A stretch of DNA of 64,000 bases from an uncultured Acidobacteriia bacterium (GTDB taxonomy: Bacteria; Acidobacteriota; Terriglobia; Bryobacterales; Bryobacteraceae). The position numbers and the translations under genes are program-made. The notes under the pieces are model-generated. The model ran no database searches. It was not told where the DNA came from and saw only the letters and a program-made list of their open reading frames with translations. The stretch lies in the NCBI GenBank assembly GCA_903892565.1, contig CAITIX010000121.1, positions 1 through 64,000 of the forward strand, in the 5' to 3' direction. Positions 52,155 to 59,773 of the stretch are shown in pieces. How positions within the stretch are numbered: position 1 is the first letter of the stretch; each line of letters starts with the position of its first letter.

Positions 52155-54629
52155 ATGGCCGAATCCGTCTACGACCACGACCAGATTGAATTGAAATGGC
52201 AGCAGCGCTGGGCCGCGAATCCGGCGCTTTATAAGGCCGACGCCGCCTCCGACGCGTCCGCCGCGCCCAAGTATTACGTTGTCGAAATGTTCCCCTATCC
52301 CAGTGGACGCCTCCACATGGGCCACGTGCGGAACTACTCCATCGGTGATGCGCTCGCGCGTTATATGTGGATGCGCGGCTATAACGTATTGCATCCCATC
52401 GGTTGGGACGCCTTCGGATTACCGGCCGAAAACGCGGCGATCAAACGCAACATGCATCCCCAGGATTGGACGCGCTCCAACATCCAGGAGATGAAGAAGC
52501 AAATGCTGCGCATGGGCTTCGCCTACGATTGGGCCACGGAGATCGCCACGTGCGAGCCCGATTATTATCGCTGGAACCAGTGGCTCTTCCTGAAAATGTT
52601 CGAGCGCGGCTTGGCGTATCGCAAGAAAGCGATGGTCAACTGGTGCCCCGAATGCGCGACGGTGCTGGCCAATGAACAGGTGATCGACGGCTGCTGCTGG
52701 CGTCACGAAACCACGCCCGTGGAGCAACGCGCACTGGAGCAATGGTTCTTCCGCATCACCGAATACGCCGACGAGCTCTTGAAAGACACGTACGACAAGC
52801 TGGAAGGCGGCTGGCCCGAGCGCGTGCTCTCCATGCAGCGCAATTGGATTGGCCGCAGCGAAGGTTCTGAGATCGACTTCGCGATCGAAGGCTCGTCCGA
52901 GAAAATTCGTGTCTTCACTACGCGCGTCGACACCATCTACGGAGCCACCTGCGTGATCCTCGCGCCCGAGCATCCCATCGCGCAAGCGCTGCTCGACGAC
53001 GCAGGCAAGGCCAAGGCCAAGCATTTGATCGACGCCCGCAAGCAACAAGGCCCGGGCGAATTGATCAAAGACGGGGCTCCGACGGGCCACTACGCGATCA
53101 ACCCTTATAGCGGTGAGCGCGTTCCCATCTGGATCGGCAACTTCGTACTGATGGACTACGGCACCGGCGCGATCATGGCCGTCCCCGCGCACGACGAGCG
53201 CGATTTCGATTTCTGCACCACGTTCGGCATCCCAATTCGTTCGGTGATCCGACCCGTGGACGGCGCGTTGGACGAAAATCCGAAAGCGGCGTTCTGCGAC
53301 TACGGCATCACCGAAAAATCAGGCGAGTTCTCCGGCTTGCCCAGTGCCGACGCGCGCCGCAAGATGAACGAATTCGCCGAGGCCAAGGGTTTCGGCAAAG
53401 CGGCCATCACGTTCCGCATCAAGGATTGGGGCGTTTCGCGCCAGCGTTACTGGGGCACGCCGATCCCGATGATCCATTGCCCGAAGTGCGGTCTGGTTCC
53501 CGTGCCCGAAAAAGACCTGCCCGTCACGCTTCCTTATAACGTGAAGTTCACGGGGCGCGGGCGCTCGCCGTTGGCCGAGGTCCCTGAGTTCATGAACGTG
53601 AAGTGCCCCACGTGCGGGGCCGACTCGCAACGCGAAAGCGACACGATGGACACGTTCGTCGATTCGTCCTGGTATTTCTACCGCTACTGCGATCCTCGCA
53701 ACACGAGCGCGCCGTTCGATAGCGCCGCGGTCGCCAAATGGTTCCCGATTGATCAATACATCGGCGGCGTCACGCATGCGATTCTGCACCTGATCTACTC
53801 GCGCTTTTTCACGAAGGTCATGCGCGACCTCGGCCTGATCACGAATTCCGAACCCGCGCAGAATTTGTTCACGCAAGGCATGGTGCTGGGCTCAGACGGC
53901 TCGGCGATGTCGAAATCCAAGGGCAACGTGGTGGATCCCGAAGAAATGGTCGGCAAGTACGGCGCCGATACGTGCCGCTTATTCGTGCTGTTCGCGAATG
54001 CTCCGGAAAAGGACATGCCGTGGATTGAGAGCAGCGTCGGCGGACCGCGACGTTTCTTGGAACGCGTGTGGCGCTTCGTGACGCGAAATGCGGAGCGCAC
54101 TGCCGATGCCGAGTGGGTCGCGGCGGAAGGCAGCTCCGATGCCGACCGGCGCGCCTTGCGCAAGCTGCACCAGACGATCAGTAAAGTGACAGAAGACTTT
54201 GACAATCGCTGGCACTTCAACACGTCGATCGCGGCGTTGATGGAGTTGATGAATCGCCTGTACGAAGACGAAGCGTCCTTGTCGCGCGCGGCGCTCGATC
54301 AGATCCTGCCGAACGTGACGCTGTTGCTCGCGCCGTTCGCTCCGTTCATCGCCGACGAACTGTGGGAGCAACTCGGCCGCACGGGTCCCGCGTTCCGTCA
54401 ACCCTGGCCGCAGTGGGACGCCGAACTTGCCAAAGAAGACCTGCTGGAGATCCCGGTGCAGGTCAACGGCAAGCTGCGCGCAAAAATCATAGTGCCGATT
54501 GGAACTCCGCAAGCGGAGCTCGAGAAACTGGCGCAAGCCGACGCGAAGATCCAACCGCTGCTTGAAGGCAAGACGATCGCCAAGCTGATCGTGGTGCCGG
54601 ATAAATTGGTTAATATTGTGGTGCGGTAG
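52155..54629 (+). CDS. leuS: Leucyl-tRNA synthetase
   Basis: [74 protein letters not shown] (KMSKS). Confidence 0.97.
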
Positions 54630-54638
54630 GTCCGCCTT

Positions 54639-55796
54639 ATGCTGCTCAAAGAACTTCAGATCGAGGGCTTCCGGTCACTCAAGTCGGTGACGTGGAAGCC
54701 TGGACGCCTGAACGTTCTCATCGGACCTAACGGCGGCGGGAAATCGAACTTATTGCGGGCATTGGACCTGCTTCGGATAGCTGCTAAGGGTGGCCTTCGC
54801 GACACGATTATCGATATGGGCGGAATGGCGCCTCTGTTATGGGACGGCCGCGCACAGGGCCTCCGCTTCAACACGGGTCTTAGTTATTCAGACAAAATTT
54901 CCCTGAATTACGAACTTGAACTAAGTCGGCTCGGTGCGTTGGGTAGTTACGTTCGTAACCGTGAGCACCTAAGTCGTCTGGATCAAATTACGGGCGTGTC
55001 GTTAGGGCTCCTCGCCCTCAATCCGCTTTTCAACGACGATGCGAATGAAGCCGAGACAAACCTGTCTCAAGTTCTGAGAATCGCGCCGATAAATCCCCCG
55101 GACGATACCGCTCAGATCATCGTAGTTACCCAGGCATTCTTCAGCCAGTGGGCAATTCATTGCGACATGCGCGTTGACCAAGGGTCTGACATGCGCAGTC
55201 CCCCGGTCGCGCGTTCTGAGAACCGCGTACGCGGCGATGGGCAGAACCTTGTCGCCGTCCTCCACACGAACTATACGACCGACCCCGACTTTAGGGACCT
55301 CATTGACAAGGCCATGTCCGCCGCGTTTCCCGACGACTACGACAAATTAGAGTTTCCACCTGTTCCAGCGGCGCATAGCCGGATCGACATGCGGCTGTGG
55401 CGCAAGCACCGCAAACGGCCTGACAGCCCCGCGGATCTCTCCGACGGAACACTTCGATTCTTATTACTAGCGACGATTCTCGGCAGCACCCATCCCGCTC
55501 CGCTGATCGCGATCGACGAACCCGAAGCCGGTCTCCATCCGCGCATGATGTCGATCATCGCGGAAATCGCCGCCAGCGCGGCTATGAAGAGCCAAGTGAT
55601 CTTCTCTACGCATTCACCGCAGTTTCTCGACGCCTTCAGCGATGACCATGACGACTTGCCGGTTGTCACCGTTGTCACGTCTAACGGATCGGAGACGCAA
55701 TTGAAGAACATCGATGGCGAAGAACTGAAACGCTGGGTGGAGGGCTACTCGCTTGGGAAGTTTGCCTTCTCCGGAGAGGCTGAGATCGCCTCGTGA
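54639..55796 (+). CDS. AAA_21/RecF-like ABC-type ATPase
   Basis: LQIEGFRSLKSVTWKPGRLNVLIGPNGGGKSNLLRALDLL (Walker A); LSDGTLRFLLLATIL (signature); PLIAIDEPEAGLHPRMM (Walker B); VIFSTHSPQFLD (H-loop). Confidence 0.92.
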   Translation: MLLKELQIEGFRSLKSVTWKPGRLNVLIGPNGGGKSNLLRALDLLRIAAKGGLRDTIIDMGGMAPLLWDGRAQGLRFNTGLSYSDKISLNYELELSRLGALGSYVRNREHLSRLDQITGVSLGLLALNPLFNDDANEAETNLSQVLRIAPINPPDDTAQIIVVTQAFFSQWAIHCDMRVDQGSDMRSPPVARSENRVRGDGQNLVAVLHTNYTTDPDFRDLIDKAMSAAFPDDYDKLEFPPVPAAHSRIDMRLWRKHRKRPDSPADLSDGTLRFLLLATILGSTHPAPLIAIDEPEAGLHPRMMSIIAEIAASAAMKSQVIFSTHSPQFLDAFSDDHDDLPVVTVVTSNGSETQLKNIDGEELKRWVEGYSLGKFAFSGEAEIAS

Positions 55797-56395
55797 AACT
55801 GGCGATCTTCGTCGAGGGGCAAACTGAATATTGCCTCCGCGAGTTCCTGAGCCGTTGGCTCGAACAGCAGCAAATCCGTGGAATTGGAATTAACCTTCGC
55901 CCTTTCAAAGGCGCAGGCGATTACCTGGATGGGATCGAACGCAGTGCGAAACTGGCACTTCAAACGCCGGGCGTTCTAGCCGCCATCGGGATTGTCGATT
56001 TCTACGGCTCGACATTGAAGTATCCGGATGGTCCTGTTGCGACGCAGTATCAATGGGCAAAGCAGCAATTGGAGCGCAAGGTGAATCATCCCAACTTCCG
56101 CCAGCACTTTGCTGTTCACGAAACCGAAGCTTGGCTATTGAGTGACCCCACTGTTTTCCCGGTCGAGATTCGGGGCGATCTTCCTAAGGCACCGCCTGAA
56201 TCCGTCAATCATCAAAATCCGCCGGGGCGTCGACTGAAAAACTTGTACCAGAGAAGGCTCGGCAGAAAGTACAAGAAGCCAATCGAAGGCGCGTCGCTCT
56301 TCCGGAATCTGGATCCCGAGATCGCGTACCAGCGATGTCTGCAGCTACGGCTATTGCTGGACGACGTCTTGGCTCTCGCCACTTCCGCGCGATAG
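55793..56395 (+). CDS. DUF4276-like protein, TOPRIM-type putative nuclease
   Basis: VKLAIFVEGQTEYCLREFLSRWLEQQQI; IGIVDFYGS; HFAVHETEAWLLSDPTVFP; GTG start overlaps the ATPase stop (GTGA). Confidence 0.8.
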   Translation: MKLAIFVEGQTEYCLREFLSRWLEQQQIRGIGINLRPFKGAGDYLDGIERSAKLALQTPGVLAAIGIVDFYGSTLKYPDGPVATQYQWAKQQLERKVNHPNFRQHFAVHETEAWLLSDPTVFPVEIRGDLPKAPPESVNHQNPPGRRLKNLYQRRLGRKYKKPIEGASLFRNLDPEIAYQRCLQLRLLLDDVLALATSAR

Positions 56396-56550: not shown

Positions 56551-57294
56551 ATGCTGGCCCCCGGACAATCCGCGACCGCTCTTCCTCCGCTGGCCATTCG
56601 GGCCGTGAACCTCGCGAAGAAATATCGCTCGGGTGACGCTGAACTTGTCGTCTTCCAAAACCTGAACTTAGAAGTAAACGTGGGCGAAAAACTCGCGCTG
56701 GTGGGCGAATCGGGAAGCGGCAAAACAACATTGATGCATCTTTTGGGAGGGTTGGACAGCCCAACAGAGGGTGCGATATACTTCGGGCAGAATGACATCT
56801 GTAAGCTATCGGGGGACCAGTTGTCCGAGTTCCGCAACCGGGAGCTGGGATATGTCTGGCAGATTCAGTCGCTACTTGCCGAATTTACGGCTCTCGAGAA
56901 CGTGATGATGCCCCTGCTGATACGCGGCCAGAGCCGGGACCAGGCAGAGCCTGTATCTCTTGCGCGGCTGGACGAAGTCGGCTTACGCAACCGGGCGTCG
57001 CATCGCGCGGGTGAACTTTCCGGAGGCGAACAACAGCGTGTGGTTCTGGCGCGCGCCCTCACGGGAGATCCCAAGGTTTTGCTGGCCGACGAACCCACCG
57101 GCAGCCTCGATTTTCGCACGGGAGAAATGATCATGAGCCTGCTCGACGACCTGCACCGGTCTCGCAAGCTCACCTCCATTCACGTGACGCACAATTTGAA
57201 TTTCGCGCGCCGGGCCGATCGTGCCGTCGCGTTGCAGCAGGGACAACTGGCACCAGCCAACTTGTCTTCCTCGGAAGGTAGCCATCATGTTTGA
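56551..57294 (+). CDS. ABC transporter ATPase, LolD/MacB-like
   Basis: [73 protein letters not shown]. Confidence 0.9.
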
Positions 57295-59773
57295 ACGTTA
57301 TACAGAGAAGGCCCGCCGCGTGATTTTTTTCGCGCGATATGAAGCTAGCCAGTTCGGCAGCCCGTGCATCGAAACCGAGCACCTGTTGCTGGGCTTGCTG
57401 CGCGAGGATAAAGCGCTCGCCAATCGCTTCCTGCGCTCCAGCGCCTCCGTCGATTCCATCCGCAAGCAGATCGAAGCGCACACGACGATGCGCGAGAAAG
57501 TTTCCACCTCCGTCGATCTGCCGCTCAGCCACGAATGCAAACGCGTGCTGGCATACGGCGCGGAAGAAGCCGAACGCCTGAATCACAAGCACATCGGAAC
57601 CGAGCACTTGCTGCTCGGCTTGCTGCGCGAAGAAAAATGTTTCGCCGCCGATATCCTGCATGAACGCGGCCTGCGCCTCTCGCAGGTCCGAGAAGAAATT
57701 GCCCGGACCACTTCCGAAAAGGCCTCTTCGAACCGCCCCAAGGAAAGCTCGCTGCTCAGCGAATTCAGCCGCGATCTCACGCAAGCTGCGATGGACGGAT
57801 CGCTCGATCCGCTGATCGGGCGCGACTATGAGCTCGAGCGCGTCGTGCAGATTCTGTGCCGCCGCACGAAGAACAATCCCGTGCTGATCGGCGAACCGGG
57901 CGTCGGTAAAACGGCCATCGTCGAAGGACTCGCACAGCGCGTGGCCGATGGCGATGTGCCTTCGTTCCTGGCCGATAAACGCATTTTGGCGCTGGATCTT
58001 TCGCTGATCGTCGCCGGAACCAAGTATCGCGGACAGTTCGAAGAGCGCCTGAAGACCATCATGAAAGAGCTGATGGAAAATCAGAACGCCATCATCTTTA
58101 TCGACGAGCTGCATACGCTAGTCGGCGCGGGTTCCGCCGAAGGTTCGCTAGACGCGGCCAATATTTTGAAGCCTGCGCTTTCGCGCGGCGAAATTCAGTG
58201 CATCGGCGCGACCACGCCGGCCGAATATCGCAAGTCCATTGAGAAGGACCGCTCGCTGGAACGCCGCTTCCAAGCCGTGAAGGTTCCGCCTCCGAATGAA
58301 GAGGACGCCACGCGGATTCTATTCGGCATTAAGGAACGCTACGAGAAGTTCCACGCCGTGGCGTATACGGACGAGGCGATTGAGAGCTCGGTGCACGCCT
58401 CCGTGCGCTTTATTCCGGATCGTTTCTTGCCGGATAAGGCCATCGATTTGATCGACGAAGCGGGCGCGCGCGTGAAGCTCCGCCAGACGACGTTGCCGGG
58501 CGACGTGGCCGACGTGCAGAAGCGCATCAAGTTCATCGTGCATCGCATGGAAAACGCCATCGCGAATCACGAGTTCGAAAAGGCTCGCTTCTATTCGGAC
58601 GAAGAACGCAAGGAACGCGAGAACCTGCGCGTGCTGCGTGAAAAATACAACCTGGACGATACATCCACGGGCGTCGTCACCAAAGATGACATTGAAGACG
58701 TCGTAGCGCGCTGGACCGGCGTTCCGATGACGGCGATTAAAGAAGAAGAAGTCGCCAAGCTCCTGCGGATTGAAGAAGAGCTGCACAAGCGCATCATCAG
58801 CCAGGAGAAAGCAATCTCCGCTCTGGCGCGCGCGATTCGCCGCTCGCGTGCGGGCTTGAAATCGCCGAAGCGTCCCGCTGGATCGTTCCTGTTCCTGGGA
58901 CCGACGGGCGTTGGTAAAACCGAAGTCGCCCGCGCACTGGCCGAGTTCCTGTTCGGCAGTGAAAAATCGCTGATCCGTTTCGATATGTCGGAGTTCATGG
59001 AAAAGCACTCCGTATCGAAGTTGATCGGTTCGCCTCCGGGCTACGTAGGTTATGAAGAAGGCGGCCAGCTCACCGAACGCGTGAAGCGCGCGCCGTATTC
59101 CATCATCCTGCTCGACGAAATCGAGAAGGCGCATCCGGATGTGTACAACATCCTGTTGCAGGTGTTTGAAGATGGCCAGTTGACCGACGGACTCGGCAAC
59201 CAGGTGGACTTCAAGAACACCATCATCATCATGACTTCGAATCTGGGAGCTCGTTTCCTGGACAAGAAGAGCCCGATTGGTTTCTCGGGCCACAATACGA
59301 TTCCCGCGAAGGTGGAAGATCAGGTGATGGCCGAAGTGAAGAAGGCCTTCAATCCGGAATTCCTGAATCGTCTGGACGAAGTGATTCTGTTCACGTCGTT
59401 GACCGATGACGATTTGCTCAAGATTGTCCGCCTGCTCACCGACCAGATGAACGTCAATCTGGCGACCAAGCAGATCAAGATTCGCTTGAAGGACGACGCT
59501 GCCAGGTACATTATGGAGAACACGCTGACGGATCGCAGCTACGGCGCGCGTCCTCTGCGGCGTGCCATCCAGAAGTACATTGAGGATCCTCTGAGCGAAG
59601 CTTTGATTCAGGGATCGCTCGCACGCCCCGCCGAATTCGAAGTCTATCTCGGCGAAGGTGGCATCTACTGCCGTCAGTTGGTGGAAGAACCAGTCGGCGC
59701 AGCGACGGGCGATGGCGCTCCCGCAGTGGCCGAGGCTCCGCCTCCGGGTATTCCGCTGTACATGTTCAACTAG
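57287..59773 (+). CDS. clpC: ATP-dependent Clp protease ATP-binding subunit ClpC
   Basis: [41 protein letters not shown] (Clp_N); two AAA+ modules [10 protein letters not shown] and [20 protein letters not shown]. Confidence 0.95.

Follow-up and report, generated by a model that had tools for sequence, protein, structure and literature searches.

The gene pair described here belongs to a soil acidobacterium of a Bryobacterales lineage, in which a two-gene cassette lies directly behind leuS in the window (the whole stretch of DNA that was analysed, 64,000 nucleotides in length). The features of the locus are listed in Table 1. Both open reading frames (ORFs) and the GTGA start/stop overlap between them, as described in the initial annotation, were confirmed at these coordinates, and the four ATPase motifs which had been reported as complete (Walker A, ABC signature, Walker B and H-loop) were all located and found to be conserved in homologues. 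The leuS stop codon forms the left boundary of the insertion. The cassette had been placed between leuS and clpC; this was correct on the leuS side, while on the clpC side a LolD-like ABC transporter ATPase gene intervenes, at a distance of 155 bp from the pair. The LolD-like gene overlaps clpC by 8 nt (57287-57294) and the two genes are found together even where leuS lies elsewhere (G089, G024 and G138), which suggests a conserved ABC gene-clpC operon. A GC content lower than that of the neighbouring genes had also been noted, and a modest drop was indeed observed, with values of 0.566 for the ATPase gene and 0.550 for the DUF4276 gene compared to a mean of 0.586 (sd 0.017) for the 48 long ORFs, among which the DUF4276 gene is the second lowest. 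Repeats were sought at the boundaries of the cassette and none was convincing.

Table 1. Coordinates of the gene pair, its motifs and its flanking genes in the window.
Feature	Position	Strand	Evidence or remark
leuS (leucyl-tRNA synthetase)	52155..54629	+	Upstream flank; orthologues in the same place in relatives
Spacer, 9 nt, leuS stop to ATPase start	54630..54638	+	Equivalent in G130 is 8 nt
HEC-01A-type AAA_21 / RecF-SMC-like ABC ATPase, 385 aa	54639..55796	+	Pfam, PADLOC, AF2, Foldseek
Walker A GPNGGGKS	54723..54746	+	ATPase gene
ABC signature LSDGT	55437..55451	+	ATPase gene
Walker B LIAIDEP	55503..55523	+	ATPase gene
H-loop STHS	55605..55616	+	ATPase gene
GTGA start/stop overlap, 4 nt, ATPase/DUF4276 genes	55793..55796	+	Sequence
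HEC-01B-type DUF4276 protein, 200 aa, predicted TOPRIM-like effector	55793..56395	+	Pfam, PADLOC, AF2, hhalign
VEGQTE motif of DUF4276 protein	55811..55828	+	E8 and E12 invariant in 57 homologues; counterpart of OLD TOPRIM VEGxxE
VDFYG of DUF4276 protein	55994..56008	+	D69 invariant; Tyr71 where DxD has its second Asp
HETEAW of DUF4276 protein	56117..56134	+	E112 and W114 invariant
LolD-like ABC transporter ATPase gene	56551..57294	+	Right flank of insertion; kept upstream of clpC in relatives
clpC	57287..59773	+	Conserved right flank

The proposed identity of the two proteins held in HMM searches, in which the first matched Pfam AAA_21 (E=1.5e-33) and the second Pfam DUF4276 (E=2.2e-22). The pair had been regarded as an uncharacterised system; however, it is already listed by PADLOC as the candidate HEC-01, the ATPase matching HEC-01A (5.1e-55, residues 3-374) and the DUF4276 protein matching HEC-01B (5.3e-14, residues 2-186). 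HEC-01B (PDLC04188) is likewise matched by each of the 57 aligned members of the family of the DUF4276 protein. As the best HEC-01B model reaches only 5e-14, the window protein is considered a divergent HEC-01 member. The HEC set (HEC-01 standing for Hma-embedded candidate 1; PADLOC-DB 2.0) reportedly originates from a 2024 preprint by Payne et al. (doi 10.1101/2024.01.29.577857). A literature search found no mechanism or experiment for HEC-01 and no paper on DUF4276. HEC-01 is present among the defence-system calls in Desulfovibrio piger (PMC12724379), HEC-04, an ATPase-TOPRIM fusion, is active against T4 and T5 (PMC12111858), and antiviral activity has been reported for HEC-06 (PMC12988326). 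In one study HEC matches were dropped as being not experimentally verified or unpublished, some of them having been verified later (PMC12409356).

Across 35 homologues of the ATPase, no variation was seen in the Walker A lysine, the serine and glycine of the signature, the DEP of Walker B or the LHP next to it, and the H-loop histidine is nearly invariant. The AF2 model of the ATPase (pLDDT 91.5) matched SMC, Rad50 and OLD heads in Foldseek, with E values down to 3e-14, and the Thermus OLD nuclease (TsOLD, 6p74) was among the structural matches.

The DUF4276 protein was also modelled with high confidence (pLDDT 94.8), and in this model strand 1 terminates in E8 and strand 3 in D69. A glutamate ending strand 1 and an aspartate ending strand 3 is the arrangement of the TOPRIM fold. 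In a profile-profile comparison (hhalign) with OLD TOPRIM domains taken from the same bacterial family, values of 77-82% (E about 1e-5) were obtained, compared to 0.2% for an unrelated control; VEGQTE was aligned to the OLD motif VEGDAE and, in a wider alignment, VDFY to LTDYD. The Pfam family OLD-like_TOPRIM (PF20469) was matched at E<=1 by 37 of the 57 family members, with a best value of 9e-4 and a value of 0.17 for the window protein, and smaller numbers of relatives matched models of GajA (7/57), AbiLii (7/57) and RloB (8/57). A Foldseek search of the model against the PDB gave no match at E<=0.001 and no TOPRIM protein among the 50 matches listed, which lowers the probability of the fold without excluding it, as Foldseek can miss small, divergent domains. 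Lumazine-synthase-like proteins among these PDB matches were rejected as insignificant (best E 8e-3). Among the viral predictions of BFVD, an RloB-like protein ranked first (E 2.3e-3). A direct sister relationship to RloB was rejected after the profile had been compared to that of seven local RloB sequences (0.5%), although the HMM matches of some relatives favour it. The description of the second protein as TOPRIM-like is thus backed by the profile comparison, the topology and the residues E8, E12 and D69, and fell short with respect to a significant structural match and the second aspartate of the metal site.

This metal-site motif is DxD in sister DUF4276 proteins and DxY in the window-type clade, in which Tyr71 takes the place of the second aspartate, and catalysis could therefore be altered. 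A subfamily of DUF4276 proteins (L023, L027, L030 and L051) was observed to keep DxD with VEGxTE replaced by sequences such as VEELSME, LEERSAE and VEDDLSE, indicating that variation in one half of the metal site is independent of that in the other within DUF4276. Taken as a whole, the DUF4276 protein is very likely to be a divergent TOPRIM protein with an altered metal site, and the domain is probably catalytic. More speculatively, the window-type clade may represent a Tyr-for-Asp TOPRIM with a changed metal site, or one with a chemistry or substrate unlike that of AriB and OLD. If true, the DxY clade would constitute an effector class of its own, controlled by the same ATPase sensor.

Both window proteins match the two HEC-01 components in the same order and with like adjacency; the difference is that the window pair lies outside any Hma system. 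The resemblance to PARIS (AriA, an AAA_15 ATPase, with AriB, a DUF4435 TOPRIM protein) lies in the separate ATPase and TOPRIM genes and in the match of the AriA model to the window ATPase (9e-34), whereas the window effector is a DUF4276 protein with no DUF4435 match, and DUF4435 is absent from the genome of the window. AbiL/RloAB (the AbiLi ATPase with AbiLii, an RloB-type TOPRIM protein) likewise consists of an ATPase gene and an OLD-like TOPRIM gene, and the AbiLi model matched the window ATPase (5e-20); however, the window DUF4276 protein matches neither the AbiLii nor the RloB model, each of which is matched by only a minority of its relatives. OLD, GajA of Gabija and HEC-04 (IbfA) share the OLD-type ATPase head and the alignable VEGxxE and D motifs of the TOPRIM domain, but are fused polypeptides with a second aspartate, in contrast to the two genes and the tyrosine of the window. 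No helicase (GajB in Gabija) was found adjacent to the window pair, in which the ATPase and the DUF4276 protein are separate ORFs. The PARIS- or OLD-like logic attributed to the pair was upheld, as was a remote relation to TOPRIM proteins. A full-length, single-chain OLD-type ATPase-TOPRIM protein is encoded elsewhere in the same genome (G000:C388:2750-2941, L210).

A genome scan with a profile of the DUF4276 protein identified 69 related loci covering at least 17 phylum-level groups. In 67 of these the DUF4276 gene is immediately preceded by a gene for a homologous ATPase, the remaining two having no upstream ORF above the filter, and the 4-nt overlap between the genes is present in 53. The tree of the DUF4276 protein requires 29 changes of phylum, compared to a minimum of 16. 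The nearest relative, in G130 (L138), is the sole one of the same genus among the close relatives; the next, at 46-49% identity, include proteins of other Acidobacteriota, Armatimonadota, Abditibacteriota and Planctomycetota. This evidence of transfer is strong and not conclusive, as bins may include contigs of foreign origin and groups can be split by paralogues. Searches of viral contigs, plasmid sequences and phage records yielded no relatives. Within the bacterial family, 67 of the 121 genomes sampled contained DUF4276, with up to eight matches per genome, and several of these copies were observed to be truncated or frameshifted.

The background gene order in the genus is leuS-ABC transporter-clpC. 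A relative of the DUF4276 protein of any kind was found in four of 23 genus genomes, the genome of the window (G000) included, and the close pair in just one other, G130, where it occupies the same junction; in both genomes the pair starts 8-9 nt past the leuS stop. In G139 the gap between leuS and the ABC gene measures 19 bp; in G123 it spans about 600 bp and holds one gene, and elsewhere it contains unrelated genes. As this gap is variable and the close pair occurs in only one other of the 23 genomes, the pair is regarded as a labile, horizontally spread accessory cassette. The suggestion that it is an accessory insertion rather than part of a vertically inherited gene order was borne out by ten relatives which carry an intact leuS-ABC-clpC arrangement on a single contig and no pair. 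In the LeuS tree G000 and G130 fall in one six-member clade with pair-less members between them, and their shared junction would therefore reflect either one ancient insertion followed by losses or exchange at this position. Of ten loci of other genomes with a gap gene, nine (L118, L119, L120, L122-L126 and L128), G130 included, were observed to carry a Uma2-like gene, recognised from its sequence, either inside the leuS-ABC gap or immediately in front of it; this gene is missing in the window. In addition, the first part of the gap in G137 (L119) holds, at the place of the pair, a short ORF which by eye resembles a decayed DUF3800-type gene; this ORF suggests turnover of accessory genes behind leuS.

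The neighbours of close relatives were surveyed across 122 flanking ORFs at 24 window-type loci. Those with Pfam matches were mostly ordinary metabolic or regulatory genes, pointing to housekeeping surroundings and not to defence islands, and the clear defence neighbours amounted to one BrxL and one PglZ. Guilt by association is consequently weak for the window-type clade.

The evidence as a whole identifies a real and well-formed HEC-01-type mobile ATPase-TOPRIM module; it is a divergent representative in a tidy location, not a new system. With respect to its working, we consider it reasonably likely, by analogy with characterised systems, that the ATPase restrains a toxic TOPRIM nuclease and frees it on phage infection. 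The cassette would have entered the Bryobacterales lineage as an accessory unit directly behind the leuS stop and, as a search of it revealed neither promoter-like nor terminator-like signals, would probably be transcribed by read-through from leuS. The ATPase may bind the DUF4276 protein, keep it inactive and sense a signal of infection, as its relatives suggest; on triggering, the DUF4276 protein would be freed or activated and would cut nucleic acid (tRNA or DNA), halting both cell and phage. This restrain-and-release model is drawn from AriB of PARIS, a TOPRIM nuclease which cleaves tRNA (PMC12409363), and from AAA proteins which neutralise TOPRIM_OLD toxins in tested pairs, a design shared by AbiL (PMC10440598); by the same analogy, complex formation, toxicity and nuclease activity of the DUF4276 protein, the trigger and the role in phage defence are all putative. 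tRNA-Leu as the target, or co-operation of the TOPRIM protein with leuS, was considered on the basis of location and rejected, as relatives elsewhere do not adjoin leuS.

Alternatively, the two genes may form a selfish toxin-antitoxin pair in which the ATPase neutralises a toxic DUF4276 protein and which persists by addiction, with no selected anti-phage role. This is rather unlikely, although AAA-TOPRIM_OLD pairs of like design have been validated as toxin-antitoxin systems (PMC10440598) and the lone insertion among housekeeping genes, the scarcity of defence neighbours and the patchy gain and loss are in keeping with it; the same gene set and distribution are equally expected of abortive defence, with which it overlaps mechanistically, and PADLOC places HEC-01 as a defence candidate. 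A RecF/RecR-like ATPase-TOPRIM pair serving DNA repair or housekeeping, outside conflict, is improbable. The RecF/SMC/Rad50-like head of the ATPase, the housekeeping neighbours and the existence of an OLD-family ATPase in archaea for which a role in the cell cycle is reported (PMC12796447) are compatible with such a function, but stability would be expected of housekeeping genes, whereas the pair is missing from most close relatives, has moved across phyla and shows about 50% identity in the DUF4276 protein compared to about 80% in the flanking LeuS and about 95% in ClpC. Vertical inheritance at leuS-clpC, with patchiness due to assembly gaps and losses, is very improbable and largely refuted by the ten contiguous pair-less sites, which include G137 and G123 of the same LeuS clade, and by the presence in other phyla of relatives with 46-49% identity, although the common junction and clade of G000 and G130 would allow one old insertion with later losses at the level of the genus.

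HEC-01 is widespread, yet no description of its mechanism was found in the literature searched. The locus provides a clean example of HEC-01, in which the two genes form a compact unit at a well-defined position and pair-less leuS-clpC sites exist in relatives, and offers a set of invariant residues together with a naturally occurring change in the TOPRIM metal site.
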